Assembly: GCF_026676115.1 (NCBI RefSeq) | Contig: NZ_JAPONB010000004.1 | Span: 1 to 64,000 of the forward strand | Length of the DNA: 64,000 nt | DNA from: Salinimicrobium sp. TH3 | GTDB lineage: Bacteria > Bacteroidota > Bacteroidia > Flavobacteriales > Flavobacteriaceae | Direction: 5' to 3' | Part shown: positions 12,378 to 32,111 of the stretch, in pieces | Position numbering within the stretch: position 1 is the stretch's first letter | Layout: every line of letters starts with the position of its first letter | The notes under the pieces: model-generated | What the model saw: only the letters and a program-made list of their open reading frames with translations | The model's database searches: none | Told to the model about the DNA's origin: nothing | Position numbers and translations under genes: made by a program

Positions 12378-12391
12378 ATGATTTTTATCAT
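12378..12391. promoter_or_regulatory. Fnr/Crp-like operator ATGAT-TTTT-ATCAT
   Basis: This perfect 14-bp palindrome has the TGAT-N4-ATCA layout of Fnr/Crp-type sites. Its centre (12384.5) is 36.5 bases from the end of the likely -7 element at 12414-12421, i.e. about -42 from the expected start site. It suggests autoregulation of the Crp/Fnr gene. The rest of the 12085-12377 gap shows no gene. Confidence 0.6.
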
Positions 12392-12413
12392 GTCCAATGA
12401 AGACAATTAATAC

Positions 12414-12421
12414 TATTTTTC
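12414..12421 (+). promoter_or_regulatory. Probable -7 element (TATTTTTC) of the Crp/Fnr gene
   Basis: It matches TAnnTTTG at 7 of 8 positions. It lies inside the frame opened by the ATG at 12397, which argues that translation really begins at ATG 12451. Confidence 0.4.
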
Positions 12422-12450
12422 TTCTAGAGTTATTATTAAAAACCATCAGT

Positions 12451-13119
12451 ATGGGAATTTTTAATTTTACAAGCCCGTGTTTCCCTCCCCAAATTCTTCA
12501 ACCATTTCGTGAAAAAGGCGATGGATTATTTTTTAAGAAAGGGCAGTTGATTTATCAGGAAGGCAGTACCCCATTGGGAGCCTACTTTGTAGAAAAAGGG
12601 AAAGTGAAAATCAGTAAAACAGGAAGCCTTGGAAAAGAGAAAATTGTGAAGATTGCCATCCATCCCGAATTACTTAGTTTTTCTGATCTTTTCTCCCGCC
12701 GAAAGTATACAACCTCTGCCGAGACTCTCGAAGAGACTTTTCTTTTGTTCGTTTCTAAAGAGGACTTTTGGAAAGTTCTAAATAAAAATCAGGAAATATT
12801 CTCTCATTTGCTTTGTCGGCTTGCAGAAGATATAAACAGGATTGAGGAAACAGTTACCGATCTTGCTTATAAACCTGTTAGAGGTCGTCTTGCCGATGCA
12901 ATTTTATCCCTGGATGACTCTTTCAACGGCACCGACGGCTCCTCCCATTCAATTTGCCTTACCCGCACCGATCTTGCAGGATATGTTGGCACGGTAAAAG
13001 AAACCGTAAACAGGCTGTTATCTGAGTTGAAAGAGGAGAAGATCATTTCCACTCTGGGTAGTCGCATAGAAATTCACGATAGGGAGAAACTCAATAAGAT
13101 AAGCAAGCTCTACAATTAG
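12451..13119 (+). CDS. Crp/Fnr-family transcription regulator
   Basis: This is a DNA-binding regulator of the Crp/Fnr superfamily. The N-terminal half is a cyclic-nucleotide-binding-type beta roll (LIYQEGSTPLGAYFVEKGKVKI) with no N-terminal Cys cluster, so it is not an Fe-S Fnr. The C-terminal winged helix has a typical recognition helix (TRTDLAGYVGTVKETVNRLLSELKEEKII). The track-length frame from 12397 is possible, but the operator and -7 element favour the ATG at 12451, giving 222 aa, normal for the family. In Bacteroidetes such regulators often control oxygen, nitrogen-oxide or redox responses; here the signal is unknown. Confidence 0.88.
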   Translation: MGIFNFTSPCFPPQILQPFREKGDGLFFKKGQLIYQEGSTPLGAYFVEKGKVKISKTGSLGKEKIVKIAIHPELLSFSDLFSRRKYTTSAETLEETFLLFVSKEDFWKVLNKNQEIFSHLLCRLAEDINRIEETVTDLAYKPVRGRLADAILSLDDSFNGTDGSSHSICLTRTDLAGYVGTVKETVNRLLSELKEEKIISTLGSRIEIHDREKLNKISKLYN

Positions 13120-13253
13120 GTTTAAAATCATCGAAAACCGGGCGTGGATTGAATTAACACAAGATGTTTTTCTTAAAATTATTCCTCAACTCTAACCCCA
13201 GAGAGGAATCAAATATGTACTTGATTGTTTACCCTATTTAATCCTTTTCTGCC

Positions 13254-13261
13254 TAAATTTG
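13254..13261 (+). promoter_or_regulatory. -7 promoter element (TAAATTTG) for the glycosyltransferase
   Basis: This exact TAnnTTTG match overlaps the first possible start (TTG 13259), so translation likely begins further downstream. Confidence 0.45.
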
Positions 13262-13317
13262 TCCCCCGAACAGGAAAGGCGTTTCTGTTATATTTTTAAT
13301 TTTAAACCAAATCAGTT

Positions 13318-14140
13318 TTTGGATCTGGAGCCCTCATATCAATCACGATTTGACGCACTTCATTGTTGTGTCCTTATTCCTACATATAATAACCACAAGA
13401 CCTTGCAGAGGGTAATTGATGAAGTGTACAATTACACCAAAAACATCATAGTGGTAAATGACGGTTCCACCGATAATACCGAACGAATCCTTGAAAATTA
13501 TTCTTTTTTGCAGGTAATCAATATCCCGGTAAACAAAGGAAAAGGGAATGCGCTGAAAAGAGGTTTTAAGGAAGCTCAAAAAATGGGCTACAAGTATTCC
13601 ATTTCAATGGATTCCGATGGGCAGCACTTCCCCGATGATCTGCATGTATTTCTTGATGCCCTGGAAGAACACATTACTTCCCAACCCGATCTTTTGGTTA
13701 TTGGATCCCGAAAAATGGACGATCCTACGGTGCCCGATAAAAGTAGTATTGGAAACCGCTTTTCTACCTTTTGGTATTGGGTGGAAACCGGAATTAAATT
13801 GAAAGACACTCAATGTGGTTACAGGCTTTATCCTCTTGAGGCTGTAAATTCTCTTTCTTTATACACCTCCAGGTTTGAACTGGAGATAGAAGTGATCGTA
13901 AAGGCAGCATGGAGCGGAGTAAAAGTGATCAATCTTCCTGTAAAGGTACTTTATGACCCTCAGGAAAGAGTCACGCATTTCAAGCCCTGGCAGGATGTGG
14001 CAAGAATAACACTATTGAATATATACTTTGTTTTTGTTGCAGCTTTCTACATTGCACCCCGTAATCTTCTGCGGAAGTTTCGATCATCAAAAGAAAATTC
14101 TCCAAAAAAGACGGTGTCTAATGAAGTTCACCTGGAATAG
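13318..14140 (+). CDS. Glycosyltransferase family 2 (dolichol-phosphate-mannose-synthase-like)
   Basis: This is a GT-A enzyme that transfers a sugar from a nucleotide sugar, probably to a lipid carrier or glycolipid. It shows CVLIPTYNNHKTL, VVNDGSTDNT, the metal/nucleotide-binding SMDSDGQH (DxD-like) and DTQCGYRLYPLEAV. A hydrophobic segment near the end (ARITLLNIYFVFVAAFYIA) gives membrane contact. No ATG exists before the core. TTG 13259 overlaps the promoter, so TTG 13318, leaving about 17 residues before the core, is preferred with low certainty. It converges with the THUMP-like gene, with only 9 bases between stops. Confidence 0.85.
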
Positions 14141-14149
14141 TCTTCCTAA

Positions 14150-15325
14150 TTAGCTTTTTTGACACACCAGCACCACTTTTTCTTCATTCTTAAGGGTAGT
14201 AAAGAATAAGTAAGAATCCCCTCCTTCTTTTAATTTGAGTTGCTTCCTAAGGTCCGCAACTGTTTCAGGAAAATTGCGGGTGGAGATATTGGCTTTTTTT
14301 AACTGCAGCTCCTTCTTCAGCTGTTTTTTTCTGAAAGGCAGTACCTGTAGGATCTTAAAACGTCTTCCGGGGAATTCTACAGGCTTTTCTGAAGTAAACA
14401 GCTGGGTATTGGGATGAAGTTTGTTAAGTCCAAGATCCTTTCCTAAGGCAGCAAATAGACCACTTTTCATTATAGCCGCATTGGGTTCATACAGGAATTC
14501 CTCAGGATCCTGGTAATTTTCAGGAAGATTTTGCCCAAAAGAACTTTCATAGATCTGCTCTCCTTTCTTCTGAAAATTCACCGTTTTAATTCGGATTACT
14601 TCCGAAGCACCTTTCTTCAGGATCCAAAGCAGTTCTTTCACATCATTTTCAACAGCGACAACATGGATTTCATGAACATTTTTCAGCTCGTTAAGTCCTG
14701 CCTGCAGGTCGAGCAGGGGAGAGGTCTTCACAATTATATTGTTGGACTTTTCCTGAAGTAATTCCATGTTTTCGGGAACATTGGGTAAACAGTTAGAAAG
14801 GAAAAAGACCCGCCCTCCCGCTTCGTCTCGGCGGGAAGGATCAATGTAGATCCAATCGAATTTTTTAGTCGTTTTTTTTAGAAATCCAATTCCATCCCCG
14901 GCTTCAGAAATGACATTTTTGGCATTCAGTATTTGAAAGTTGTGAGAAGCGATTTCCTGCAGTTCGGGATTTAGTTCAAAATGTCTTACCGTTTTTACCT
15001 TATGCGCAAAGTAATAGCTATCTATTCCAAACCCCCCGGTAAGATCCAGAAGCCTGTCACCTTCCACCAAAGAAGCTTTGTATTTTGCAGTAACTTCAGA
15101 AGAAGTTTGCTCTAAATTAACGTTGGGAGGATAAATGATTCCCCGGGTTTTGAACCAGTGGGGGAGTTTTTTTTCAGCTCTTTTTTTTCCTGAAAGCTGC
15201 ACCAAAAGCTCCTGTGTAGAAATACCTTCAAAAGGACTGTTCTGAAATGCCATTTTTGACACTTCAGTTTTATAGTTGTTTTCTAAAAACTCCTGAACCT
15301 CGTTATTTAGAAGTTTCCGGTTCAA
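14150..15325 (-). CDS. Class I SAM methyltransferase with THUMP-like C-terminal domain
   Basis: This is a predicted RNA- or protein-modifying methyltransferase found widely in Bacteroidetes. The SAM-binding core lies at about residues 85-200: motif I LLDLTGGFGIDSYYF, acidic motif FELNPE, and motif IV WIYIDPSRRDEAGGRVF. The C-terminal part (about 300-391, FKILQVLPFRKKQLKKEL, ISTRNFPETVADLRKQLKL) matches the THUMP-like domain associated with this family. The target is not known. It follows the AI-2E transporter gene with no gap and belongs to the reverse-strand run reading from tsaD. Confidence 0.85.
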   Translation of the reverse strand: MNRKLLNNEVQEFLENNYKTEVSKMAFQNSPFEGISTQELLVQLSGKKRAEKKLPHWFKTRGIIYPPNVNLEQTSSEVTAKYKASLVEGDRLLDLTGGFGIDSYYFAHKVKTVRHFELNPELQEIASHNFQILNAKNVISEAGDGIGFLKKTTKKFDWIYIDPSRRDEAGGRVFFLSNCLPNVPENMELLQEKSNNIIVKTSPLLDLQAGLNELKNVHEIHVVAVENDVKELLWILKKGASEVIRIKTVNFQKKGEQIYESSFGQNLPENYQDPEEFLYEPNAAIMKSGLFAALGKDLGLNKLHPNTQLFTSEKPVEFPGRRFKILQVLPFRKKQLKKELQLKKANISTRNFPETVADLRKQLKLKEGGDSYLFFTTLKNEEKVVLVCQKS

Positions 15326-16414
15326 TTAAAGGTCCCTGGTTAATCGTTTTACTATCTTATATTCGCTTAAAGATTCTTTTGCAATCACCTTGATCGCGGT
15401 ATAGAAAGGCACAGCAACCACCATCCCTAAAATTCCCGAAGTTAATCCGGCAATTAGGATTATAAGGAAGATCTCCAGGGGGTGTGAACGTACACTGGCT
15501 CCAAAAATAAGCGGCTGATTGATAAAATTATCGATCAATTGGCAAATTAGATACCCGGACATAACATATATAAGCTGCGGTAGAATTATAGTTTGGAAGT
15601 CAGCTCCCAGATTGCTGGAAATGACAAAAAGTGAAACTAAAATTCCGGCAATAATTGGTCCCAGGTAAGGTACGATATTGAGAAACGCGCAGATGAAGGC
15701 TATAGCAATTGGATTGTTGATTTCAAATAGAGATAACAAAATGCTGTATAGAATAAAGAGAACCGTGATTTGCATGGTGAGCCCGACGAAATAGCGGGAT
15801 AACAATACCTTGATCTTATTGAAGACCCGCTGGAACTTATCTTCATGACCCTTATTGGCAAAAACAAGAATACTGTTAAGCATGAGGCGACTGTCCTTGA
15901 GAAAAAAGAAAGAAATAAAAATTATGGAAAAAATAGCAATCACTCCCGCTCCTAAAATGCCAAAGAAATTATTAAGATATCTTGGGATGGTGGATAAGTC
16001 AAAATTTCTTGCAAATTCTGTTTGTTTAATACCTTCAATGATGTTGATCTCTTCAACACCAAGATAATTGTTGATCTGGTTATTTAATTCATTTAAATCC
16101 CGGGTAAAAGCGTCCATATCTATTTGTCCCAGGTTTTTACTCTGTTCAACTACGATAGGAATAAAAATGGTGATAAGGCCAATAAAGCTGCTTAAAACCA
16201 GCAGTAAAACTATTACCACCGCAAATTTATTCGGGATCTTTAAATGATTTTTTAGGAACAGAACGATTGGCCTGCCAACAAGCGAGATCACCCCGGCAAT
16301 AGCAATGTAAACGAGTACTGACTGTATGAGATATAGAAAATAAAGAAGAAAAACCACCCCCAGTATTATGGCAATGGCGCGGAGGATTCCGTAGGAAAGT
16401 TCTTTTTCGTTCAC
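15326..16414 (-). CDS. AI-2E family transporter (UPF0118)
   Basis: This is an inner-membrane protein of 362 aa with about eight helices: two hydrophobic pairs in the first 90 residues, a polar cytoplasmic or periplasmic stretch (95-150), and a helical bundle with the family-typical FSIIFISFFFLKDSR and NIVPYLGPIIAGI segments. Members export small molecules or act as Na+/H+ antiporters; true AI-2 export has been shown only for some. The gene abuts the THUMP-like methyltransferase gene directly. Confidence 0.9.
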   Translation of the reverse strand: MNEKELSYGILRAIAIILGVVFLLYFLYLIQSVLVYIAIAGVISLVGRPIVLFLKNHLKIPNKFAVVIVLLLVLSSFIGLITIFIPIVVEQSKNLGQIDMDAFTRDLNELNNQINNYLGVEEINIIEGIKQTEFARNFDLSTIPRYLNNFFGILGAGVIAIFSIIFISFFFLKDSRLMLNSILVFANKGHEDKFQRVFNKIKVLLSRYFVGLTMQITVLFILYSILLSLFEINNPIAIAFICAFLNIVPYLGPIIAGILVSLFVISSNLGADFQTIILPQLIYVMSGYLICQLIDNFINQPLIFGASVRSHPLEIFLIILIAGLTSGILGMVVAVPFYTAIKVIAKESLSEYKIVKRLTRDL

Positions 16415-16433
16415 GGGGTAAATATATTATTTC

Positions 16434-16946
16434 TCATCGAACTGGTTGCAGCCTTTTTGTGATTTCAAAAAGTGCTATTGCCCCAGCATGAGTAACATTC
16501 ATGCTGCTGTTATCTCCAAACATTTCAATATGAAGCAGATCATCGGCCATTTCCAGGATTTCTTTTTTGACTCCCCGGCTTTCATTTCCCAGCACCAGGG
16601 CCACTTTATCCTGATTCTGAAAATGCATTTCCTGAACCGGAATACTTCCTGATGCCACTTCTAATGCCAGAATTTTATATCCTTCTAATTTCAATTCCAT
16701 GCAAACAGCTTGAGAATTTTCCCGTTCCTCAAAAAGCACATTTTTTATTGTAGCCCTGGCTGTCCTTTTCAACCTGTTGCTTTTTAAGTCTACGGGGTTT
16801 TCACAGAAGATTAGCTTTTCAATTCCAAAGGCATCGGCCAGCCTAAAAAGGCTGCCCATATTCGCCGGACTTGAAATTCCATCAAGAATAAGAACAATAG
16901 GGAATTTTTTCTTTTCGAAAGTAGTGGAATCGTGTGTTGCCTGCAT
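16434..16946 (-). CDS. TrmH-family (SpoU) RNA 2'-O-methyltransferase
   Basis: This is a SAM-dependent RNA ribose methyltransferase with the SPOUT knot. All three motifs are present: motif 1 ISSPANMGSLFRLADAFG, motif 2 LVLGNESRGVKKEIL, and motif 3 MNVTHAGAIALFEI. At 170 aa it is a minimal catalytic domain without the N-terminal substrate-binding extension of TrmB/RlmB, as in TrmL-like or TrmH-like small enzymes. The RNA target cannot be assigned. Its start overlaps the stop of the DUF4159 gene by one base. Confidence 0.9.
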   Translation of the reverse strand: MQATHDSTTFEKKKFPIVLILDGISSPANMGSLFRLADAFGIEKLIFCENPVDLKSNRLKRTARATIKNVLFEERENSQAVCMELKLEGYKILALEVASGSIPVQEMHFQNQDKVALVLGNESRGVKKEILEMADDLLHIEMFGDNSSMNVTHAGAIALFEITKRLQPVR

Positions 16947-17590
16947 TAGTTGGAAAAAGCAAATTTTACAATGTTTGCTCCCATTTGAAGAGCCTTTAAT
17001 CTCACTTCTTCTGGATCATTGTGCACCTGTGGATCTTCCCAGCCATCACTAAGATCGGTTTCAAAGGTAAACAGGCACAGAAGCCTTCCATTTTCAAAAA
17101 TGCCAAAGGCCTGCGGGCGAAGTCCGTCGTGTTCATGGATCTTTGGCAGGCCATTGGGATAATTAAATGCTGCAGAAAAAATGGGATGGGAGGCGGGAAG
17201 TTCCTCGAGCTCTTTATCGGGAAAAACTTTTTTAAGTTCCCTCCGAATGAATTCATTCATTCCATAATTGTCATCGATATGCAAAAATCCTCCTCCCAGG
17301 AGGTAAGTACGAAGATTTAATGCGTCTTCTTCACTAAAGAACACGTTACCATGCCCGGTCATAAAGATCAACGGATACTGGAAAATGTCTGTACTGCCCG
17401 GTTCCACCGCCCCGGGTTGGGGATCAATTGAAGTGTTAATATTTTGATTGCTAAATTGTATAAGATTTGGAACCGCTGTGGGGTTGCTGTACCAATCGCC
17501 GCCACCGCCGTATTTAAGGACTGCAACCTGCTGCGCCTGTAGATTTGCGACGAAAGAAGAAAATAGGAAAAATAGCAGCAGTTTGTTCAT
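16946..17590 (-). CDS. DUF4159 exported protein
   Basis: This is a periplasmic protein of unknown function (215 aa from the preferred start). ATG at 17590 gives a signal peptide (MNKLLLFFLFSSFVANLQAQ); a start at 17629 would place 13 extra residues before it and overlap rsmE. The core is a ThuA/glutamine-amidotransferase-like fold: MTGHGNVFFSEEDALNLRTYL, GGGFLHIDDNYGMNEFIRRELKKVFP, then HPIF and a His-rich HEHDGLRPQAFG segment. In gliding Bacteroidetes, DUF4159 proteins are common near envelope genes. Confidence 0.85.
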   Translation of the reverse strand: MNKLLLFFLFSSFVANLQAQQVAVLKYGGGGDWYSNPTAVPNLIQFSNQNINTSIDPQPGAVEPGSTDIFQYPLIFMTGHGNVFFSEEDALNLRTYLLGGGFLHIDDNYGMNEFIRRELKKVFPDKELEELPASHPIFSAAFNYPNGLPKIHEHDGLRPQAFGIFENGRLLCLFTFETDLSDGWEDPQVHNDPEEVRLKALQMGANIVKFAFSN

Positions 17591-17615
17591 GTCTCTAAAA
17601 TAGCAAAAATGAATG

Positions 17616-18329
17616 TTATTCTTCTTCATTGATCAATGCAGCCGTATGGCAGGCCACCACAGCTGCGGTTTCGGTCCTTAGCCTGCTGTTTCCAAGGCTA
17701 ACCGGCTTCCAGCCTGCTTCTAACGCCATTCTGATCTCTTCGGGGGAAAAATCTCCTTCGGGCCCGATTAAAATTGTTGCCGAAATGCCTTTTTTCAGAC
17801 TTCCTGAAAGTAATCTTCTTGGTATGGAATCTTCACAATGAGCAATAAACCTTGCTTCAGGATGATCTTTTTCTATGAAATCCTTAAAACTGATAGGTTC
17901 ATGCAACACCGGAAACCTGGTATGCAGGGACTGCTTTAGAGCACTCTGGATCACTCTTTGAAAGCGTTCAGATTTCACGACTTTACGTTCACTGTGATCA
18001 CAAATAACCGGCGTGATCTCCTGGATCCCAATCTCTGTGGCCTTTTCCAGGAACCACTCATAACGATCGTTCATTTTCGTAGGGGCTACCGCAAGGTGTA
18101 AATGATATGATGCCGGTGCCTCTTTTTCAGTTTTTAAAATGCGGGCGGTACAGTTATTGGCTTCGGCCAGGGTAATTTCTGTTTCGAAGATCCAGCCTTT
18201 CCCATTGGTAAGGTGCAGGCGGTCTCCTTCACGCTTGCGAAGCACCTTCACAATATGTTTGCTCTCCTCCCTGGAAAAGCGAACTTCCTTATGATCTTCA
18301 GTTACTTCAGGATGAAAAAAGAGCTGCAT
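17616..18329 (-). CDS. rsmE: 16S rRNA (uracil-1498-N3)-methyltransferase
   Basis: This enzyme methylates N3 of U1498 in the small-subunit rRNA. An N-terminal PUA-like domain (about 1-70) is followed by the SPOUT domain with LAVAPTKMNDRYEWFLEKATEIG, the motif ILIGPEGDFSPEE, and LGNSRLRTETAAVVA near the end. The 237-aa length is standard. It sits between tsaD (3-base gap) and the DUF4159 gene in a co-directional run. Confidence 0.95.
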   Translation of the reverse strand: MQLFFHPEVTEDHKEVRFSREESKHIVKVLRKREGDRLHLTNGKGWIFETEITLAEANNCTARILKTEKEAPASYHLHLAVAPTKMNDRYEWFLEKATEIGIQEITPVICDHSERKVVKSERFQRVIQSALKQSLHTRFPVLHEPISFKDFIEKDHPEARFIAHCEDSIPRRLLSGSLKKGISATILIGPEGDFSPEEIRMALEAGWKPVSLGNSRLRTETAAVVACHTAALINEEE

Positions 18330-18332
18330 GGA

Positions 18333-19355
18333 TTACATTTTAATTCTTGCTGTGGCGGTCACTCCAAGATCGGCAAAATCTTCAGAAATAAATTTGTAAT
18401 GGCCGGCAATGGCGATCATCGCTGCATTATCTGTAGTATACTCGAATTTTGGAATATAAGTTTTCCAGCCGTATTTAGCCTGTGCTTCCACGAGGGTTTT
18501 CCTGATACCACTGTTGGCCGATACTCCTCCCGCAATGGCAATTTCTTTTATGCCCGTTTGTTTCACTGCTTTTTTTAGTTTATCCATAAGGATATTAATT
18601 ATGGTGTGCTGAATTGAGGCGCAGATATCATTAATGTTTTCTTCAATAAACTTAGGATCTTCCTTTATTTGTTTCTGAATAAAGTAAAGAATAGAGGTTT
18701 TTAAACCGCTGAAGCTAAAGTTCAAACCTTCCACTTTTGGTTTGGGAAAAGGAAAAGCTTTTGGATTACCCTTTTGAGCATTTTTATCTACTAAAGGACC
18801 ACCGGGATAGGGAAGACCAAGGATCTTTGCACTTTTATCAAAAGCTTCTCCCACTGCATCGTCTAGCGTTTCTCCAATTACTTCCATTTTAAAATAGTCT
18901 AAAACTTTTACGATCTGGGTGTGACCCCCGCTTATTGTTAGAGCAAGAAATGGGAACTTTGGTTTTTGAAAATCTTCCTCCTCAATAAAGTGGGCGAGGA
19001 TGTGAGCCTGCATATGGTTAACATCCAAAAGCGGGATATTAAGCCCTAAGGAAAGTGATTTTGCAAAAGAGGTTCCTACCAAAAGAGAACCCATTAAACC
19101 GGGACCCCGTGTAAAAGCAATTGCAGAAAGATCTTCTTTCGTTACTCCGGCCCTGGAAAGAGCTTCATGAATTACGGGTACAATGTTCTGTTGGTGAGCT
19201 CTGGAAGCCAGCTCGGGCACCACCCCCCCATACTTTTGGTGGACCTCTTGAGTCGCCACAACATTAGATAAAATTTTACCATTATGAAGTACTGCGGCAG
19301 CAGTATCATCACAGGATGATTCAATGCCGAGTATGTAAATATTTTGTACTGTCAT
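18333..19355 (-). CDS. tsaD: tRNA N6-threonylcarbamoyladenosine synthase subunit TsaD
   Basis: TsaD transfers the threonylcarbamoyl group to A37 of ANN-decoding tRNAs. It is an ASKHA-fold protein of 340 aa with ILGIESSCDDTAAAVL, the metal-binding His pair in NHMQAHILAHF, LALTISGGHTQI, and the C-terminal IAGGVSANSGIR and TDNAAMIA. It is the first gene of the reverse-strand run and diverges from tamB. Its likely -7 element lies inside the tamB reading frame. Confidence 0.97.
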   Translation of the reverse strand: MTVQNIYILGIESSCDDTAAAVLHNGKILSNVVATQEVHQKYGGVVPELASRAHQQNIVPVIHEALSRAGVTKEDLSAIAFTRGPGLMGSLLVGTSFAKSLSLGLNIPLLDVNHMQAHILAHFIEEEDFQKPKFPFLALTISGGHTQIVKVLDYFKMEVIGETLDDAVGEAFDKSAKILGLPYPGGPLVDKNAQKGNPKAFPFPKPKVEGLNFSFSGLKTSILYFIQKQIKEDPKFIEENINDICASIQHTIINILMDKLKKAVKQTGIKEIAIAGGVSANSGIRKTLVEAQAKYGWKTYIPKFEYTTDNAAMIAIAGHYKFISEDFADLGVTATARIKM

Positions 19356-19376
19356 CCCTAGTATTTAGGCCCGAAA

Positions 19377-23864: not shown

Positions 23865-23868
23865 AAGA

Positions 23869-23905
23869 ACAGGGGGCTCAAAAATGCCATTTTTGAGCCC
23901 CCTGT
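23869..23905. terminator. Bidirectional terminator between tamB and ridA
   Basis: An 18-bp perfect inverted repeat (ACAGGGGGCTCAAAAATG and its complement) has one base between the arms. It lies 4 bases after the tamB stop and 31 bases past the ridA stop on the other strand. It serves both converging transcripts. Confidence 0.88.
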
Positions 23906-23936
23906 CATATTCATTTTTTGATCTTTGTTATTTCCT

Positions 23937-24317
23937 TTACTTAACTGCGATCATACTTATTTCCACATTCACAAACTTTGGAAGATTCGCCACCTCCACA
24001 GTTTCCCGTGCCGGGGCTGTCGCTTCATTAAAATATTTTGAGTAAACGGCATTGATCCTGGCGAAATTATTCATGTCACTTATGAAGATCGAGCTCTTCA
24101 CTACATTTTCAAAGTCCATTTCGGCTGCACCCAATATGGCTTTGAGGTTGCGCATTACCTGCTCTGTCTCCTCTTCAATATTTTTCTGTTCCAGTTCCCC
24201 GTTCACGGGATTAATAGCGATCTGTCCCGAAATATACAAAGTGTTTCCGCTTAGAACAGCCTGATTGTAAGCTCCTATTGGTGCCGGAGCATCTTTGGTT
24301 TGAATGATGGTTTTCAT
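23937..24317 (-). CDS. ridA: RidA-family enamine/imine deaminase
   Basis: This is a small (126 aa) trimeric YjgF/YER057c/UK114 enzyme that hydrolyses reactive enamines and imines from PLP enzymes such as threonine dehydratase. It shows the family segments APAPIGAYNQAVLSGNTLYISGQI and PARETVEVANLPKFVNVEISMIAV, with the catalytic Arg in PARE. It lies 12 bases downstream of lptD on the same strand. Confidence 0.95.
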   Translation of the reverse strand: MKTIIQTKDAPAPIGAYNQAVLSGNTLYISGQIAINPVNGELEQKNIEEETEQVMRNLKAILGAAEMDFENVVKSSIFISDMNNFARINAVYSKYFNEATAPARETVEVANLPKFVNVEISMIAVK

Positions 24318-24329
24318 AATTTTTAGCTT

Positions 24330-27023
24330 TTATAAACTTCTGTCTCTTTCTCTCCTTTTTTCATATTTAATATCCCTCAACAAGGAAGACTTGATCCCTA
24401 TAAAGAAATTCCATTGCTTATAAACTCCAAAAGGAGTCCAACTAAAGGTCATTCTCCAGCTTTCAAGATCCCGTGCAAATCGCAACTGGGTATGGGTGAA
24501 ACCGGTATTTACAAAATCATAACCCGAGGAGGCACCAACAGTCCATTTTGGAGAAAATTCCACATCTCCCGAAAACATAAGGGAATGTGAGGAAATCTCA
24601 TTTTGTCTTGCAGTGTTACTGTAGTTCATAGCATAAGCCAGCCTTAGGTTCCACGGTATTTCAAAATTGTACCATAAATTCTCGTTTTCTTCCTCATCGG
24701 GCATATCGGTTTCTTTTTCGTCATAAAAAGTACCGTCGATATCCATGTCTTTTCCAAAAAGATCATCGGGTCTTCCTCCATTTCTGAAGGTTTGATTTTC
24801 AAGCCTGTTGACATTCTCTTTTCCACCCGAAAAATCCTGGCTTGAGAAGGAATATCCAAAACTTACATTGGCATTAGTAAGCCTAAAGAGACTTCCGCCA
24901 TTTTCAATATTTAATTTATCTATACGGCGGTTGGCGTTGTTTAAAGCATATATATCAAGGTTACTTCCAAAATTAATATCCAGTTTGTTCTGTATCACCG
25001 GGATACTTCCGCGTATGCTAATAGGGGAGAGCTTTAAGGAATCTCCTGCAAGATTGTAGGAAGTGCTAATATTAAAGTTGTTTAGCAGTTTTATCTTCCG
25101 TGGTTCGGCATCTACGGAATCTTTCACCTTAGCTTCAAAAGTGTTACTTAACGACAGGCCAATAGAACTGGAAAAGATTTTTCCCGGAGGTCCATAGAGG
25201 GAACCCTGAAATCGAGAATAATCTACAACACGTTCTTCCCGTCCATCTGTCTCGGGGATGACATATTGATCATAATAGTAATCAAATCCCGGATTGATAT
25301 TATAGCTTATAGAGGGACGCATAACGTGCCGTATTGCCTGGTACTTACCATCACCGCCAAAGGTTTTCATCCCATAAATGGTAGTTCCTATACTGGTGTT
25401 GAAGTTGTAGGTACGAAAAGAATCAAAACCACTCACAGTGTCTATAACCTCCCTGCGGGCTTCCTCGTCATAAGATCTCTCAAAAGTTTTGAAAACCCAC
25501 GACTCGGTATAATTTGTCCCTGCACTAACACTTAAGTAGTTGAATAATTTAAAGTTTGTAGTAAGCGGAATAGTATGCTGTGCACCAAAAACTGCATCTT
25601 TAAACATTTCAGGTGTAAAGAAAAGCGAGTCTGTAGTCCGGAATCTGTTCTCACCCCTAAAATTGTATTGGAAATTTATGTTTTCAATAATTCCTTTTTT
25701 TGAACCCACTTTTGGCTCGAAAGGATAAACTCTTGCCATACTGGCCTGCACTGTTGGCAGGGTCATATTTATTTGATTGGTATTGGTGTTCTGGCTGTGT
25801 GTGGCAGTGATGCTTAGGTTTACCTGCGGCTCAATATTGAATGTTTTGGAATAAGAAACCGAAGAAGTTAATGTATTTGTCAACCTGTTCCCGGTGTTCA
25901 TTTGATTGGTAGAGGCCTGGTAATAGTCACTACTACCAAGGTTCACGGCTGCCGAGAACCTTGAAGAAGGATTTGCTTTTGAATCCTGGGAGTGGTTCCA
26001 GCGCAGGTTGTAAATAGTGCCTTCAGAAAAATCGGGAAAACCTCTTTCACTGTTTATTTGCTTTTCATATCTAAAGCTCAGGTTTCCCCTAAATCTATAT
26101 CGTAGGGCATAAGAAGATTCCATTCTTAAGCCATAGCTCCCGTTAGTGTAATAATCTCCCAGCACCGTTAGATCTACATAATCATTAATGGCAAAATAAT
26201 AACCTCCATTTTGCAGGAAGAATCCGCGGTTGTTGTCATCACCGAATGAGGGAATGATAAATCCCGAGGTCTGCTCATCGGTCATTGGGAAATAGCCAAA
26301 CGGAAGACCTAAAGGAGTAGGAACATCGGCAATGTACATATTCACCAGGCCGGAGACTATCTTTTTATCGGGTACTAATTTGATCCTTCTGGCATAAAAA
26401 TAATAATCTGGGTTTTCTTCATTAGGGGAGGTGGTAAACCTCACATTCTTCATGTAATACACTGAGTCATTTTCCCGCTTTGTGATTTGACCGAGCACTT
26501 TAAATTCTCCCTGATCTGTTCGGGAATTGAAGACGAGGGCTTTTTCAGAATCAAAATTGAATCGAATCGAGTCGGGACGCACCACATTTTGGGCCTGTGT
26601 GAAAACCGGTTTTTGAGTGTAAACTCCTGCCGTATCTACAATTCCGTAGGCATACACTTCATTGCGTTCATTGTCGAGAATGATCCTTCCTGCGGTAATG
26701 TTGATATCACCATAGGTCACTTCGGCATTATTATAAAGGTATATCCTGTTTTCCCGCGGACTCAGACGCATGTAGTCTTCTGCAGTATAGACTACTCTAT
26801 CGGCCAGCATTTCCCGTTTTGGTTTTACTGTATCTTGTGGAGTAAGTGTAATTACAGGAATTGGAGCTTCTATTTTTATGGAGTCCTGGATGGGTTGTAC
26901 AGGTTCACGTTCTGCAGGGATGCGGATACCTTCTTTGGTTTTAATTTCCTGTGCTGTGGATTTTGAGGCTAATGAAAGCATAAAAATACAGCAGGAAAGT
27001 ATGTAAAGTATCTTTGTTCGCAA
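24330..27023 (-). CDS. lptD: LPS-assembly protein LptD homologue
   Basis: This is an outer-membrane barrel that inserts lipopolysaccharide into the outer leaflet. A signal peptide (ILYILSCCIFMLSLASKSTAQ) is followed by an OstA/LptA-like beta-jellyroll (about 75-220, EDYMRLSPRENRIYLYNNAE, ITAGRIILDNERNEVYAYG) and a long barrel. The barrel contains LPLGLPFGYFPMTDEQTSGF-like lumen segments and ends FGVYKQWNFFIGIKSSLL plus a charged tail. The 897-aa length matches Bacteroidetes LptD. The start must be TTG at 27023, because the frame meets a stop three codons upstream and no internal ATG keeps the signal peptide. Confidence 0.9.
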   Translation of the reverse strand: MRTKILYILSCCIFMLSLASKSTAQEIKTKEGIRIPAEREPVQPIQDSIKIEAPIPVITLTPQDTVKPKREMLADRVVYTAEDYMRLSPRENRIYLYNNAEVTYGDINITAGRIILDNERNEVYAYGIVDTAGVYTQKPVFTQAQNVVRPDSIRFNFDSEKALVFNSRTDQGEFKVLGQITKRENDSVYYMKNVRFTTSPNEENPDYYFYARRIKLVPDKKIVSGLVNMYIADVPTPLGLPFGYFPMTDEQTSGFIIPSFGDDNNRGFFLQNGGYYFAINDYVDLTVLGDYYTNGSYGLRMESSYALRYRFRGNLSFRYEKQINSERGFPDFSEGTIYNLRWNHSQDSKANPSSRFSAAVNLGSSDYYQASTNQMNTGNRLTNTLTSSVSYSKTFNIEPQVNLSITATHSQNTNTNQINMTLPTVQASMARVYPFEPKVGSKKGIIENINFQYNFRGENRFRTTDSLFFTPEMFKDAVFGAQHTIPLTTNFKLFNYLSVSAGTNYTESWVFKTFERSYDEEARREVIDTVSGFDSFRTYNFNTSIGTTIYGMKTFGGDGKYQAIRHVMRPSISYNINPGFDYYYDQYVIPETDGREERVVDYSRFQGSLYGPPGKIFSSSIGLSLSNTFEAKVKDSVDAEPRKIKLLNNFNISTSYNLAGDSLKLSPISIRGSIPVIQNKLDINFGSNLDIYALNNANRRIDKLNIENGGSLFRLTNANVSFGYSFSSQDFSGGKENVNRLENQTFRNGGRPDDLFGKDMDIDGTFYDEKETDMPDEEENENLWYNFEIPWNLRLAYAMNYSNTARQNEISSHSLMFSGDVEFSPKWTVGASSGYDFVNTGFTHTQLRFARDLESWRMTFSWTPFGVYKQWNFFIGIKSSLLRDIKYEKRRERDRSL

Positions 27024-27043
27024 TGGTAGTTATGCTATTTTTG
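27014..27043 (+). promoter_or_regulatory. Promoter for the amidase gene: TTG-N19-TATTTTTG
   Basis: A -33 TTG at 27014-27016 and an exact -7 TATTTTTG at 27036-27043 with a 19-base spacer fit the Bacteroidetes sigma-A consensus. The -33 part lies within the first codons of the divergent lptD. Confidence 0.6.
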
Positions 27044-27149
27044 TATGGTGTGGCTCGTTTTTTGAAGTCTCAAAATTACATATATTTTTTAAGGTACCTT
27101 TTGAGTTCACTAAAAATAATAAGCACCCCTAATGAACCGTTATTTCCAT

Positions 27150-28268
27150 ATGAAAACGAATTTTCTTGCAATTTTAATATTTTTTACTGCTATTAATCCT
27201 TTAATGGCTGCTTCTGTAGCAGGAGATCCGCCGCGCGATCCCTTTGTAGTTGTGTTAGATGCGGGGCATGGAGGTCATGACCCCGGTAACACCTGGAACG
27301 GTTACAAAGAAAAAGGAATCGCTTTAAATATCGCCCTAAGGGTTGGTGCTGAACTTGAAAAGATCCCGGATATTAAGGTGATCTATACCCGTAAGTCAGA
27401 TGTTTTTGTAACTCTGGCAGGAAGAGCACAGATCGCAAATAAGGCCGAAGCAGATCTTTTTGTTTCAATTCATATGAATGGTCATAAATCCCAAGCCCAG
27501 GGAACCGAGACCTTTGTACTTGGGCTTCACCGTAACCAGGATAACCTGGAGGTGGCAATGCGTGAGAACCAGGTAATCTTTCTTGAGGAAGATTATGAAA
27601 TGACTTATGACGGCTTTAATCCTAATTCTCCTGAGTCTTATATAGGACTTACTCTTATGCAGGAAGAGTATTTGGATCAAAGTATTTTGCTTGCAGATTT
27701 TATTCAGAAGAATTTTACCAACTTAAATAAACGGGTTAACCGCGGGGTAAAACAGGCGGGGTTCCTGGTGTTGAGGGAGACCTATATGCCTAGTGTTCTT
27801 ATAGAAGCAGGATTTTTAAGCAATAGGTCCGAAGGTGCTTTTCTTAATAGTGCGGCCGGTCAGGCTGCAATTTCTGAATCTATTGTTCGGGCCGTAAAGG
27901 ATTACAAAAATTCGATGAATCTTTCTATTCTGGACAATATAGAAGCTAATCCTCCTATTGAGCTCACCCAGGAATCTGAAGATAGACCTCTGGACGTATA
28001 TGATGGAATAACCTTTAAGGTGCAATTGGCGGCATCAGGTAAAAAGCTGGATCCAAATTCAAGAAATTTTAAAGGATTGAACCAGGTTTCGAGAAATAAA
28101 GAAGGAAAGCTTTTCAAATATTACTACGGTGCATCTTCCAGTTATTCCCAGATACAGGATTTGCATGATAAGGCAAAACGTACCGGTTACCCCGACAGTT
28201 ACATAGTCGCATTCCGTGGAAATGAGAAGATCAGCGTTAATGAGGCGTTAAAAACAAAAATGGAATAG
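27150..28268 (+). CDS. N-acetylmuramoyl-L-alanine amidase with SPOR-like domain
   Basis: This is an exported zinc amidase that cuts the MurNAc-L-Ala bond to separate daughter-cell peptidoglycan. A signal peptide (MKTNFLAILIFFTAINPLMAA) is followed by an Amidase_3 domain (about 25-260) with VVLDAGHGGHDPG (zinc His), the zinc His in VSIHMNGHKS, and the catalytic Glu in VLIEAGFLSN. A C-terminal SPOR-like domain (about 290-365, FKVQLAASG, YYGASSSYSQ, GYPDSYIVAF) would bind denuded glycan at the septum. ATG 27132 is an alternative start. Confidence 0.92.
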   Translation: MKTNFLAILIFFTAINPLMAASVAGDPPRDPFVVVLDAGHGGHDPGNTWNGYKEKGIALNIALRVGAELEKIPDIKVIYTRKSDVFVTLAGRAQIANKAEADLFVSIHMNGHKSQAQGTETFVLGLHRNQDNLEVAMRENQVIFLEEDYEMTYDGFNPNSPESYIGLTLMQEEYLDQSILLADFIQKNFTNLNKRVNRGVKQAGFLVLRETYMPSVLIEAGFLSNRSEGAFLNSAAGQAAISESIVRAVKDYKNSMNLSILDNIEANPPIELTQESEDRPLDVYDGITFKVQLAASGKKLDPNSRNFKGLNQVSRNKEGKLFKYYYGASSSYSQIQDLHDKAKRTGYPDSYIVAFRGNEKISVNEALKTKME

Positions 28269-28290
28269 TCCTTCTTTACTATATAAATTT

Positions 28291-28298
28291 TATATTTG
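28291..28298 (+). promoter_or_regulatory. -7 promoter element (TATATTTG) for mlaD-like gene
   Basis: This is an exact TAnnTTTG match 26 bases before the GTG start at 28324, in the short gap after the amidase gene. Confidence 0.45.
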
Positions 28299-28323
28299 TC
28301 CCTAATCAAATAGGACGATTTTT

Positions 28324-29274
28324 GTGAAATATACTAAGGAGGTTAAAACTGCTCTTTTGGCCATAGTTGCCATTCTTCTGTTCATTTTTGGATATAGCTT
28401 TTTAAAAGGTAAAAACTGGTTTGATTCCAGCAGGACCTTTTATGCCATTTATAATGATGTAGAAGGGCTTTCGCCTTCATCTCCCGTGACCATCAATGGG
28501 CTCAAGGTGGGAAATGTAACTAAAATTGGATTTTTAGATCACTCAGGCAAACTGGTGGTGACTTTTCTTGTTGACAACTCTTTTCCTTTTTCTGAAAATA
28601 GTGTCGCCCAAATCTATGGTGGTGGTCTTATTGGAGGAAAATCCCTTGCAATCATACCAAAATATGAAGAGGGACAAATGGCCAAATCTGGCGACACATT
28701 GCCCGGTGCGATAGAAGAGGGGTTACTGGAACTGGTGAATGAAAGGCTAACACCTCTTCAGGAAAAAGTGGAAAAGGTTATTGTAAGTACAGATTCGCTT
28801 ATAAATTCCTTTAACGAGGTAATGAATCCTACTACCCGTCAAAATTTAAAAAATAGTATTGCTAATCTTAACGCAACTATTGCTTCATTAAACAATTCAG
28901 CAAACACGGTAGAAGATGTTTTAACTGAAAATTCTCCAAAGCTAGACCGCACCTTCACCAACCTTGATGAAATGGCCGTAAACTTCAGTAATTTTTCAGA
29001 TACTCTTTCTCAATTCGATGTAAGAAAGGTAACAGAGGATCTGGAAATGGCAGTGGCTAATTTTGAAAATGTTACCAGAAAACTTAATTCGGGAGAGGGA
29101 ACTGCAGGTAAACTTCTTAATGATCCTTCAGTCTTTAATAATCTTGAAAGGGCAACCAATCAATTGGATGCATTGATACAGGATGTGAAATTGAATCCAA
29201 AACGTTACGTACATTTTTCTATCTTTGGGAAAAACCCGGGCCCTTATTCGCCCCCTCGAGATTCATTAAAATAA
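28324..29274 (+). CDS. MlaD/MCE-family lipid transport protein
   Basis: This is an inner-membrane-anchored MCE protein that would carry phospholipids across the periplasm as part of a Mla-like system. One N-terminal helix (TALLAIVAILLFIFGYSFL) is followed by a single MCE domain (about 35-115, FYAIYNDVEGLSPSSPVTINGLKVGNV, IYGGGLIGGKSLAI), then a long helical/coiled region (130-290) that would form the tunnel or bundle. The start codon is GTG. No MlaE permease or MlaF ATPase is in the window, so its partners are encoded elsewhere. Confidence 0.9.
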   Translation: MKYTKEVKTALLAIVAILLFIFGYSFLKGKNWFDSSRTFYAIYNDVEGLSPSSPVTINGLKVGNVTKIGFLDHSGKLVVTFLVDNSFPFSENSVAQIYGGGLIGGKSLAIIPKYEEGQMAKSGDTLPGAIEEGLLELVNERLTPLQEKVEKVIVSTDSLINSFNEVMNPTTRQNLKNSIANLNATIASLNNSANTVEDVLTENSPKLDRTFTNLDEMAVNFSNFSDTLSQFDVRKVTEDLEMAVANFENVTRKLNSGEGTAGKLLNDPSVFNNLERATNQLDALIQDVKLNPKRYVHFSIFGKNPGPYSPPRDSLK

Positions 29275-29284
29275 CCAACCAACC

Positions 29285-30634
29285 ATGCAGATCCTTGCAC
29301 AAATCGCCTTTATCCTTGCCGTCGCAATTGGGTTAGGTATTTTTATTCGCAACATCCGGAGAATGATCCGGAATATTAAACTGGGTCGGGAAGCCGATCG
29401 AACCGATAACCCCGGGAAAAGATGGGGTAAAATGGCTAAAATAGCTTTGGGGCAGTACAAGATGGTGCGAAGACCTGTATCGGGTATTATCCACGTCATT
29501 GTTTATCTTGGTTTTATTATCATCAACATAGAGGTCCTGGAAATTATAATCGACGGGATCTTTGGCACTCATAGAATTTTTGCCTTTGCCGGTTCTTTCT
29601 ATAGTTTTCTTATAGGTGCTTTTGAAATCCTGGCATTATTGGTTCTTGTAGGAGTGATTATTTTCTGGATAAGACGTAATATCCTGACCATTCAGAGATT
29701 CAGGGCCAGAGAGCTTACTGAGTGGCCGAAGAACGATGCAAATTACATCCTGTACTTTGAGATGGTGCTAATGTCGCTCTTTCTAATCATGAATGCTGCC
29801 GATTACCAATTACAATTAAATCTTGCTCCTCACTATGCCATGGCTAGTGGAGAGATCGCCGGTGCTTTTCCAGTAAGTAGTTTTTTACTGCCTCTCCTGG
29901 ATGGTTTTACTAATTCCACACTTATAATTATTGAAAGAACCGCATGGTGGTTACATATTTTAGGAATTCTTTTCTTTTTGAATTACCTGTACTATTCCAA
30001 GCATCTTCATATACTTCTGGCTTTTCCTAATGTTTATTATTCCAAGATTAAACCAAAAGCAGAATTTGATAACATTGAAGCTGTGACCAAAGAAGTGCAG
30101 CTAATGATGGATCCGGATGCCGACCCATTTGCTGCTCCAGCGGAACCAGAAGGCGAAGCAGAAGGAGAGTCCGAAAAATTTGGAGCCTCAGATGTATTTG
30201 ATCTCAACAGGGTCCAATTGCTTAATGCTTACACCTGTACCGAATGTGGGCGGTGTACAGATCAATGTCCCGCGAACAACACCGGGAAATTGCTTTCTCC
30301 AAGAAAAATCATGATGGATACCCGGGATCGTCTGGAAGAGGTGGGAGAAAACATCAACAAGAATGGAAAATTTGAAGATGATGGTAAACAACTTCTCGAT
30401 GATTACATCTTAAGGGAGGAAATTTGGGCATGTACGACCTGTCAAATGTGTATAGAGGCTTGTCCTGTGGGAATTGACCCCCTTTCCATAATTGTGGAGA
30501 TGAGAAGGTATCTAATGATGGAACAAAGCGCAGGACCGGCAGATTTAAATAATGCGATGGGTAACATCGAGAACAATGGAGCACCATGGCCTTACAACCA
30601 GATGGACCGCTTAAATTGGGCAAACGAAAATTAA
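29285..30634 (+). CDS. Membrane (Fe-S)-binding protein, HdrD/GlpC-like electron-transfer subunit
   Basis: This is a 449-aa membrane protein with about five helices in the first 250 residues (NarI-like cytochrome b or Hdr membrane part). An acidic linker (PDADPFAAPAEPEGEAEGE) leads to two 4Fe-4S clusters, CTECGRCTDQCP (about 317-328) and CTTCQMCIEACP (about 383-394). It would shuttle electrons between quinone and the soluble CCG-domain protein encoded 40 bases downstream. Such pairs occur widely in Bacteroidetes, but the physiological reaction is not established from sequence. Confidence 0.85.
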   Translation: MQILAQIAFILAVAIGLGIFIRNIRRMIRNIKLGREADRTDNPGKRWGKMAKIALGQYKMVRRPVSGIIHVIVYLGFIIINIEVLEIIIDGIFGTHRIFAFAGSFYSFLIGAFEILALLVLVGVIIFWIRRNILTIQRFRARELTEWPKNDANYILYFEMVLMSLFLIMNAADYQLQLNLAPHYAMASGEIAGAFPVSSFLLPLLDGFTNSTLIIIERTAWWLHILGILFFLNYLYYSKHLHILLAFPNVYYSKIKPKAEFDNIEAVTKEVQLMMDPDADPFAAPAEPEGEAEGESEKFGASDVFDLNRVQLLNAYTCTECGRCTDQCPANNTGKLLSPRKIMMDTRDRLEEVGENINKNGKFEDDGKQLLDDYILREEIWACTTCQMCIEACPVGIDPLSIIVEMRRYLMMEQSAGPADLNNAMGNIENNGAPWPYNQMDRLNWANEN

Positions 30635-30674
30635 TTACCAAATTGGCCTTTTTGAGGCTGCAATAAAAAATACA

Positions 30675-31466
30675 ATGGCAGAAAATATTAAAGTGCCAAC
30701 CATGGCAGAATATATGGCCGAAGGAAAACAACCTGAAGTCCTGTTTTGGGTAGGTTGCTCCGGAAGTTTTGACGACAGGGCAAAGAAAATTACAAAAGCT
30801 TTTGTAAGGCTGCTCAACAGGGCAAATGTTGATTTTGCTGTGCTTGGAACAGAAGAAAGCTGTACCGGCGATCCTGCAAAACGCGCCGGGAATGAATTTC
30901 TTTACCAAATGCAGGCTGCCGGAAATATCGAGGTTTTAAACGGGTACGAGATCAAAAAGATTGTAACCACCTGTCCTCACTGTTTCAATATAATTAAAAA
31001 TGAATATCCCGGTCTTGGAGGGAATTATGAAGTGATGCATCACACTACTTTTCTCAAATCTTTGTTAGAAGAAGGCAGACTAACAGTAGAAGGTGGAAAA
31101 TTTAAGGGCAAAAGGATCACTTTTCACGACCCCTGTTATTTAGGTCGGGGAAATGGAATTTATGAAGCACCCCGTGATCTACTAAGAAAACTTGAAGTTG
31201 AATTAGTAGAGATGAAAAGGTGTAAAAAGGATGCCATGTGTTGTGGTGCCGGAGGTGCCCAGATGTTTAAAGAACCCGAGCCGGGAAAAGAAGATGTAAA
31301 CGTCGCGCGTACAGAGCAGGCAATTGAAGTTAAGCCAGAGGTAATCGCAGCCGGATGTCCTTTTTGCAACACGATGATGACAGATGGGGTTAAATCCAAG
31401 AACAGGGAAGACAACATTGCAGTAATGGATATTGCAGAGATGATCGCAACTGCTGAAGATCTCTAG
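30675..31466 (+). CDS. CCG-domain (Fe-S)-binding protein
   Basis: This is the soluble partner of the upstream membrane Fe-S protein. It has two CCG domains of the HdrB/GlpC/LutA type: the first with LFWVGCSGSFDDR and TTCPHCFNIIKNEYP, the second with TFHDPCYLGRGNGIYE and AMCCGAGGAQMF, ending with AAGCPFCNTMMTDG. These cysteines bind an unusual iron-sulfur cluster that in HdrB handles disulfides. It forms a two-gene unit with 29285 and is followed by a strong hairpin terminator. Confidence 0.88.
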   Translation: MAENIKVPTMAEYMAEGKQPEVLFWVGCSGSFDDRAKKITKAFVRLLNRANVDFAVLGTEESCTGDPAKRAGNEFLYQMQAAGNIEVLNGYEIKKIVTTCPHCFNIIKNEYPGLGGNYEVMHHTTFLKSLLEEGRLTVEGGKFKGKRITFHDPCYLGRGNGIYEAPRDLLRKLEVELVEMKRCKKDAMCCGAGGAQMFKEPEPGKEDVNVARTEQAIEVKPEVIAAGCPFCNTMMTDGVKSKNREDNIAVMDIAEMIATAEDL

Positions 31467-31483
31467 TGCAGAAGCTATAATAA

Positions 31484-31529
31484 AAAAAAGCGAGGGTCCA
31501 AAAATAGCATTTTGGACCCCCGCTTTTTT
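31484..31529. terminator. Bidirectional terminator
   Basis: An inverted repeat of 20 bases (31484-31503 with 31510-31529, one mismatch) has A/T tails on both sides. It separates the Fe-S pair from the converging gene at 31539. Confidence 0.88.
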
Positions 31530-31538
31530 GTTTACCTT

Positions 31539-32063
31539 CTATTTCAGTTTTAAAGTCTCTTCTTCTGGTTTTTTGTTCCTCACCAGGATAAGGATATCAT
31601 CTTCGGTGAGTCCTTCTTCAATATAATCTCCCTGTTTTCCCTGTAGATAAGCATACTTCTCAATATTTGTTTGGTATTCGGGCCGCGGAAGGATTTTGTC
31701 CTTATCCCCATAACCTTTTAAGTAGGCAAGGACCACTTCATCGTCTGTGGCTTTTAAATGTTTCTGTTTTTCGTACCTGGATAAAAGCAATATGGCATCG
31801 AAAAGACCCTGTTGCTGCATTTCTATATAAGAGTTTCCTCCTGCCGCGTGAATTGGTTCATGATAATAAATACAAATAGGCGCTGTAACGGTGTAGCAAT
31901 AAGATTCTACAAAATTGTTTAATTCATCCCAAATACTTCCAACCTCCACATGAATTTGCTTTTCCTCGCGCAGCCAGGATGCGAGGTCGGGGAGCTGATC
32001 TTTTTTTGACCGGTAGCCAAGTTTTCTTGCCTTTTTAAAAAGTTCCTTCTCCTTTGTGTCCAT
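31539..32063 (-). CDS. Conserved hypothetical protein with Fnr-like operator upstream
   Basis: I do not recognise the family. It is a 174-aa soluble protein, rich in charged residues, with no signal peptide or membrane segment. A Lys/Arg-rich start (KEKELFKKARKLGYRSKK) is followed by an aromatic core (SYCYTVTAPICIYYHEPIH) and an acidic end. The HxxxxH-like PIHAAGG segment is not a known motif. The -7 element TAAATTTG (minus strand, 32075-32068) ends 5 bases before the ATG, so the mRNA would be leaderless. An Fnr-like palindrome at 32098-32111 sits in class II position. The gene is probably controlled by a Crp/Fnr protein. Confidence 0.75.
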   Translation of the reverse strand: MDTKEKELFKKARKLGYRSKKDQLPDLASWLREEKQIHVEVGSIWDELNNFVESYCYTVTAPICIYYHEPIHAAGGNSYIEMQQQGLFDAILLLSRYEKQKHLKATDDEVVLAYLKGYGDKDKILPRPEYQTNIEKYAYLQGKQGDYIEEGLTEDDILILVRNKKPEEETLKLK

Positions 32064-32067
32064 AGAA

Positions 32068-32075
32068 CAAATTTA
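32068..32075 (-). promoter_or_regulatory. -7 promoter element (TAAATTTG, minus strand)
   Basis: This is an exact TAnnTTTG match ending 5 bases before the ATG at 32063. The expected transcription start coincides with the start codon. Confidence 0.55.
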
Positions 32076-32097
32076 GAAGAGGAAACTTCAGGAAATT

Positions 32098-32111
32098 ATG
32101 ATTTTTATCAG
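32098..32111. promoter_or_regulatory. Fnr/Crp-like operator ATGAT-TTTT-ATCAG
   Basis: It has 13 of 14 bases identical to the site at 12378-12391. Its centre (32104.5) is 36.5 bases from the inner end of the minus-strand -7 element, the same distance as at the Crp/Fnr gene. Confidence 0.55.

Follow-up and report, generated by a model that had tools for sequence, protein, structure and literature searches.

In a 64,000-nucleotide stretch of Salinimicrobium sp. TH3 (the window; AT-rich, 40.6% GC; C16:1-64000 in an assembly that totals 3.69 Mb over 21 contigs), two operators of the form TGAT-N4-ATCA lie about 20 kb apart, one before a gene of the Crp/Fnr superfamily (the window crp) and the other before a minus-strand gene for a 174-aa protein. 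Both appear to belong to one FNR/FixK-like low-oxygen regulon, because the other targets of the same promoter arrangement include hemN, the cbb3 oxidase genes, uspA and fhs; the regulon probably also responds to nitric oxide (NO). Sequence comparison shows the operator, the constancy of its spacing, the genes that follow it, their conservation and the gene order, from which we infer binding, phosphorylation, an oxygen signal and a leaderless start at one gene. An earlier note on this DNA had pointed to the two 14-mers, and indeed both are present exactly, with 13 of 14 bases in common, and in each case the distance between the operator centre and the point where the -7 element ends is 36.5 bases, as it had stated. 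(Numbers with the letters G, C and L denote genomes, contigs and loci.)

The palindrome by itself is not enriched. It occurs four times in the window, compared to 1.93 expected from shuffled sequences, and 116 times in the genome, about what the shuffle rate predicts (read backwards, it occurs 30 times, but the dinucleotides of this control differ). As these frequencies are at chance level, palindrome frequency alone was dropped as evidence. Two overlapping copies at window positions 37016-37033 are followed on neither strand by a TANNTTT at a gap of 11-35 bases.

The distance between the palindrome and the -7 element gave a very different result. We recorded every TGAT-N4-ATCA that is followed by a -7 pattern at any of 25 gaps (11-35 bases); the gap in the window is 23. 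In the own genome, 7 of the 10 matches with TANNTTTG fall at exactly this gap (binomial p 1.8e-8; 1 match in the backwards control), as do 12 of 32 when the final G is dropped (TANNTTT; binomial p 1.8e-9; 3 in the control). Without the window's own two sites, from which the gap was taken, the values are 6 of 9 (p 3e-7) and 10 of 30 (p 1.5e-7), respectively. Across the 12 genomes of the genus, 59 of 105 matches are at gap 23, compared to 1.9 per other gap and 2 in the backwards control, and every one of the 12 genomes has such a site; with relaxed letters (TGAY-N4-RTCA, gaps 21-25), 120 of 145 are at gap 23, as read from the listing, with 6 in the control. Across 60 genomes of the family, the figures are 150 of 401 and 10.5 per other gap, while the backwards control shows no excess (122 matches in total, 5 of them at gap 23); 12 of the 60 genomes lack any strict gap-23 match. 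Since the genomes are related, p values pooled over them are not independent, but the own-genome value is. The earlier note had held that a palindrome no commoner before promoters than elsewhere would count against its proposal: the bare count is of that kind, but the geometry is not. A palindrome that arose by chance or as a structural feature, with a meaningless coincidence of spacing, would fit the chance-level frequency, but the absence of the gap-23 peak from the backwards control, the conservation of targets and sites and the spacing statistics leave this explanation with next to no probability.

The genes that follow gap-23 sites are of low-oxygen/NO type. The survey comprised 64 loci with the strict operator (52 from 11 congeners and 12 own), and targets were named by reading translations, with no family search; 4 of the 64 sites lie inside an open frame of at least 150 codons. 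The first gene is a tandem UspA in 10 of the 12 genus genomes, HemN in 9, CcoS-CcoN in 8, formate-tetrahydrofolate ligase (fhs) in 8, the 174-aa gene in 6 and an RND-type periplasmic protein in 3, while the remaining targets occur in one or two genomes each and one locus (L184) has no assigned gene. The own genome also has sites before genes for an alcohol dehydrogenase, NuoA, a CPBP-like and another membrane protein, before the window crp, and before a gene for a 96-aa protein that is followed by a truncated globin. A relaxed search yielded seven more own sites, associated with an Rrf2-type regulator, 2-oxoacid:ferredoxin oxidoreductase, malic enzyme, hemerythrin, an outer-membrane protein and a small membrane protein, and one (L359) without a nearby gene. 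These predicted functions are in line with the low-oxygen or nitrosative response that the earlier note had suggested. According to an excerpt of PMC9723704, the cbb3 oxidase and haem synthesis are induced in F. psychrophilum under oxygen limitation.

Two of these loci have further features. At L353 (G000:C5:12300-14200), an Rrf2-family gene with NsrR/IscR-like Cys residues, followed by a NadA-like gene, has a TGAC-N4-GTCA site at gap 23, and look-alikes, judged by the resemblance of the sites, are found in most genus genomes. At L326 (G000:C14:36000-50500), a gap-23 site lies between ccoS-ccoN and a divergently oriented nirK-like gene; the gene for a small Crp, a pair of palindromes and a truncated globin are found further along.

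The positions of the window elements are collected in Table 1. For E. coli Crp and Fnr, an operator centred at -41.5 is the canonical class II arrangement. In the mapped transcription starts of F. psychrophilum, TAnnTTTG occupies -12 to -5, according to the excerpt of PMC9723704; with this placement +1 would be five bases past the -7 element, and the operator centre thus at -41.5. The class II position near -41.5 given in the earlier note is therefore predicted at both sites when the flavobacterial placement is used, and the Fnr-like operators in class II geometry that it had proposed as common to crp and the 174-aa gene are supported by the sequence comparisons. A sigma-70 scan was uninformative for these promoters, since it addresses the wrong promoter type. 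The operator at 32098..32111 suits the minus-strand gene at 31539..32063. The start of the window crp assigned by the open reading frame caller (12397) overlaps the crp promoter and runs into a stop codon in the sister species, and 12451 is the likelier start; the sister species has the same 12-mer in the same geometry at the counterpart of the 12378..12391 operator.

Table 1. Promoter elements and genes at the two window sites (window coordinates)
Feature	Position	Strand	Remarks
Operator TGAT-N4-ATCA, ATGATTTTTATCAT	12378..12391	+	Centre 12384.5, 41.5 before predicted +1
-7 element TATTTTTC	12414..12421	+	Matches 5 of 6 fixed TAnnTTTG positions; last G replaced by C
Predicted transcription start	12426	+	5 bases past -7 element end; leader 25 nt; from F. 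psychrophilum placement
Crp/Fnr-superfamily gene	12451..13119	+	222 aa; recognition helix VKETVNR; without Fnr Cys pattern
Operator TGAT-N4-ATCA, ATGATTTTTATCAG	32098..32111	-	Centre 41.5 before A of ATG
-7 element TAAATTTG	32068..32075	-	Ends at 32068
Predicted transcription start	32063	-	A of ATG, predicted leaderless; TAnnTTTG-N4-ATG in 10/10 orthologues, own included
Target gene, no family match	31539..32063	-	174 aa; matches in 10/12 genus genomes

The promoter of the 174-aa gene is conserved within the genus. The order of operator, TAnnTTTG, four bases and ATG is kept in all 10 orthologues, with the operator in the form TGAY-N4-ATCA; the operator gap is 23 in six of them, 22 in two and 24 in two, and thus the distance from the -7 element to the ATG is more fixed than the operator gap. 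Since a +1 five bases past the -7 element falls on the ATG, the mRNA is predicted to be, and probably is, leaderless; the excerpt of PMC9723704 puts leaderless mRNAs in F. psychrophilum at 5.5%. This gene starts 47 bases past the first base of the operator, compared to 58-72 for uspA, hemN and fhs. The protein has matches in 2 of the 59 genera sampled, the own genus and one weak match (26%, E 4.8e-4). It has no match in Pfam, PADLOC or PHROGs and no convincing one in PDB (two PDB matches have E 0.25 and 2.1), and its single-sequence fold is unusable, with a mean predicted local distance difference test score (pLDDT) of 37.9.

As the regulator of both sites, we lean, by a little, towards REC-Crp A, a protein that joins receiver, cNMP and HTH_Crp domains (by Pfam), coupled to a haem-PAS-like kinase. 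REC-Crp A is found in all 12 genus genomes and a gap-23 site (relaxed letters) follows it in all 12; in the own genome, the gene after this site is UspA. Outside the genus, the site follows in 15 of the 21 REC loci read, out of 31 REC-length frames. Upstream of REC-Crp A lies a gene for a PAS-HisKA-HATPase kinase (C11, about 322.8-324.1 kb), with an ATGA stop/start overlap. The best solved relatives of its PAS domain are the haem-based oxygen sensors DosP (7.5e-13) and FixL (1.3e-12), and 15 distinct sequences match, one of them named only as a multi-sensor histidine kinase. In 21 of 23 kinase loci the alignment extends over the motif; by eye, all 21 have a His at FixL's haem position, and 19 have an Arg at the distal one, where G047 has Lys and G040 has Met. 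Nearest to haem PAS domains and with the His kept, the kinase qualifies by sequence as FixL-type. At L331 (G000:C15:58000-63500), a second REC-Crp fusion precedes a gene for an Hsp20-like protein and a pair of UspA genes, and no kinase is found in this 5.5 kb stretch.

If REC-Crp A is the regulator, then at low oxygen the soluble FixL-like haem-PAS kinase would phosphorylate the translationally coupled REC-Crp, which would bind TGAY-N4-RTCA at -41.5, touch RNA polymerase in class II fashion and activate hemN, cco, uspA, fhs, the leaderless 174-aa gene and the window crp. The product of the last, with its narrow distribution, would then stand one tier lower, as NnrR does under FixK2; it may also recognise operators of this kind and thereby control its own gene.

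Elsewhere in the family, a different protein is associated with the same grammar. A Cys-rich Fnr (C-x2-C and two further fixed Cys; 4-Cys Fnr) is found in 37 of the 60 family genomes, and 32 of its 37 loci have TGAY-N4-RTCA near the frame start, 4 of them with a gap-23 promoter (by eye). In these genes (L073-L096, L250-L270) the palindrome is in most cases some 50 bases ahead of the first Met, and 33 of the 37 loci lack the gap-23 promoter; autorepression is possible. The 4-Cys pattern was absent from the 30 loci read in the genus, where matches not read score 1e-9 or worse or belong to the broken G063 gene, compared to 1e-21 or better for the 4-Cys Fnr found in other genera. Sorting the 60 genomes by regulator, with REC status taken from frame length and Cys status from the pattern in the loci read, we find 39 of 88 matches at gap 23 in the 12 genomes where REC-Crp but no 4-Cys Fnr was found (such a match is present in 12 of 12), 48 of 160 in the 24 with 4-Cys Fnr only (19 of 24), 56 of 112 in the 13 with both (12 of 13) and 7 of 41 in the 11 with neither (5 of 11; one of the 11, G020, has a clade member by tree). 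In a tree of 125 rows, in which long branches were flagged, the clade of the window Crp and the small Crp each form one group, while for REC and for 4-Cys Fnr two changes of label are required in each case, with L092 and L271 apart or intruding. It may be, and we hold this about as probable as its opposite, that the family keeps one operator grammar (TGAY-N4-RTCA, 23 bases, TAnnTTTG) and exchanges the sensor, which would be a Cys-rich Fe-S-type Fnr in many genera and a haem-PAS kinase with REC-Crp in others, among them this genus, and that the regulon here recruited the leaderless gene.

Several observations weigh against REC-Crp A. The genome encodes 10 cNMP-domain proteins, and 7 of 11 loci of REC-Crp B and 7 of the 8 small-Crp loci read are followed by a gap-23 site (relaxed letters), so that a neighbouring site is not peculiar to REC-Crp A and neighbourhood favours it only by completeness and spread. 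The site is lacking in 6 of the 21 REC loci outside the genus, the kinases of G034 and G038 (2 of 23) did not align over the haem motif, and similar PAS domains without haem may exist. In the comparison of 60 genomes, where REC and 4-Cys status rest partly on frame length and on the loci read, the genomes with neither regulator keep their slight gap-23 excess (p 0.001), G049 has both regulators and no strict site, and 5 of the 24 genomes with only the 4-Cys Fnr have no gap-23 site. The main and serious rival is the small Crp (C14:48069; VETVIR helix, no Cys), as a Dnr/Nnr-kind NO/low-oxygen regulator acting alone or beside REC-Crp. It adjoins the cbb3/nirK/truncated-globin cluster, two TGAT-N4-ATCA lie just downstream, one at gap 23, and by frame length and score it is present in 11 of 12 genus genomes, 6 of which were read. 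The gap-23 peak is family-wide, however, while loci of the small Crp were read in just two genera besides its own (G042, G054), a count from a query far from the small Crp that left many weak matches unread; we consider this reading unlikely.

Less probable still is the proposal of the earlier note, that the window Crp is an Fnr-like activator of itself and the 174-aa gene through the two sites. The protein does belong to the CRP/FNR superfamily (Pfam cNMP_binding 2.2e-15, HTH_Crp_2 1.7e-17), its recognition helix retains the E..R pair, and a gap-23 palindrome (relaxed letters) precedes the gene at all five window-type crp loci read; judged by Cys positions, it lacks the N-terminal Cys cluster for 4Fe-4S of FNR proper. 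Outside its own genome, an orthologue is found in 1 of 11 congeners (G063, S. sediminilitoris, 89% identical), frameshifted there, and in one other genus (G031, 59% identical). These three, the own paralogue (C11:553851) and a G028 protein form a clade of five (support 99/96), although the bootstrap had not quite converged and long branches lead to two of the members. The claimed control of the 174-aa gene is not supported, as the site is kept in 10 of 10 orthologues of that gene and gap-23 sites occur in 12 of 12 genus genomes despite the narrow spread of crp; the step from neighbouring gene to regulator is thus not borne out. Moreover, the own paralogue and the genes of G031 and G028 are preceded by TGAC variants of the site. 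TGAC..GTCA was considered as a private operator of the window-type clade and rejected, since congeners in which no member of this clade was found also have TGAC..GTCA at gap 23. On phyletic grounds the window Crp was rejected as the main reading for the master regulator. Instead, the five gap-23 sites indicate that its gene is probably a regulon member, and the narrow, frameshifted distribution that it is probably a target rather than the master. Autoregulation is possible, and indistinguishable from control by another regulator. In the G063 orthologue (L036, G063:C11:111472-112138), the frameshift lies near codon 30, as a pseudogene or an assembly error, and the operator is kept.

Among the literature matches listed, none describes a prior FNR-like regulon or oxygen sensor for Flavobacteriaceae or Bacteroidota, and in an excerpt of PMC8510549 the Crp/Fnr homologues of Flavobacteriales are regarded as carbon sensors similar to MalR. 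With an operator grammar exact to the base, the regulon could be read from many family genomes; the putative haem-PAS kinase is a directly testable candidate sensor, and the family may provide a natural example in which two different sensing chemistries act on a single set of operators.

The class II regulons of FNR/Anr, as known from E. coli, have TTGAT-N4-ATCAA as operator and hemN, cbb3 oxidase and UspA as typical targets. The Salinimicrobium regulon is alike in operator core, -41.5 position and typical targets, but differs in its -7 element, which is the Bacteroidota TAnnTTTG, in the flanks of the window sites, which are not TT/AA, and in its regulators, as no 4-Cys Fnr was found in the genus loci read and the window Crp lacks the Cys residues of Fnr. 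The Cys-rich Fnr of other Flavobacteriaceae shares the gap-23 peak, in genomes where REC-Crp was not found, and in G017 its gene diverges from one for a P-type ATPase-like protein, after which comes ccoN, but it differs in its fixed Cys and in a clade separate from both the window Crp and REC-Crp. The rhizobial FixL-FixJ-FixK2(-NnrR) cascade, as excerpts of PMC6710368 and PMC9104804 describe it, resembles the candidate system in having a haem-PAS-related kinase, a receiver, a Crp-type activator, a cbb3 target and possibly a lower-tier Crp. It differs in phylum and promoter, and in that the receiver is here fused to the Crp-type activator, so that no FixJ-type intermediate is needed; the locus holds one fused protein in place of separate FixJ and FixK, and a separate FixJ elsewhere was not searched for. 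In the boldest reading of these sequences, FixL-FixJ-FixK would have collapsed here into two proteins.

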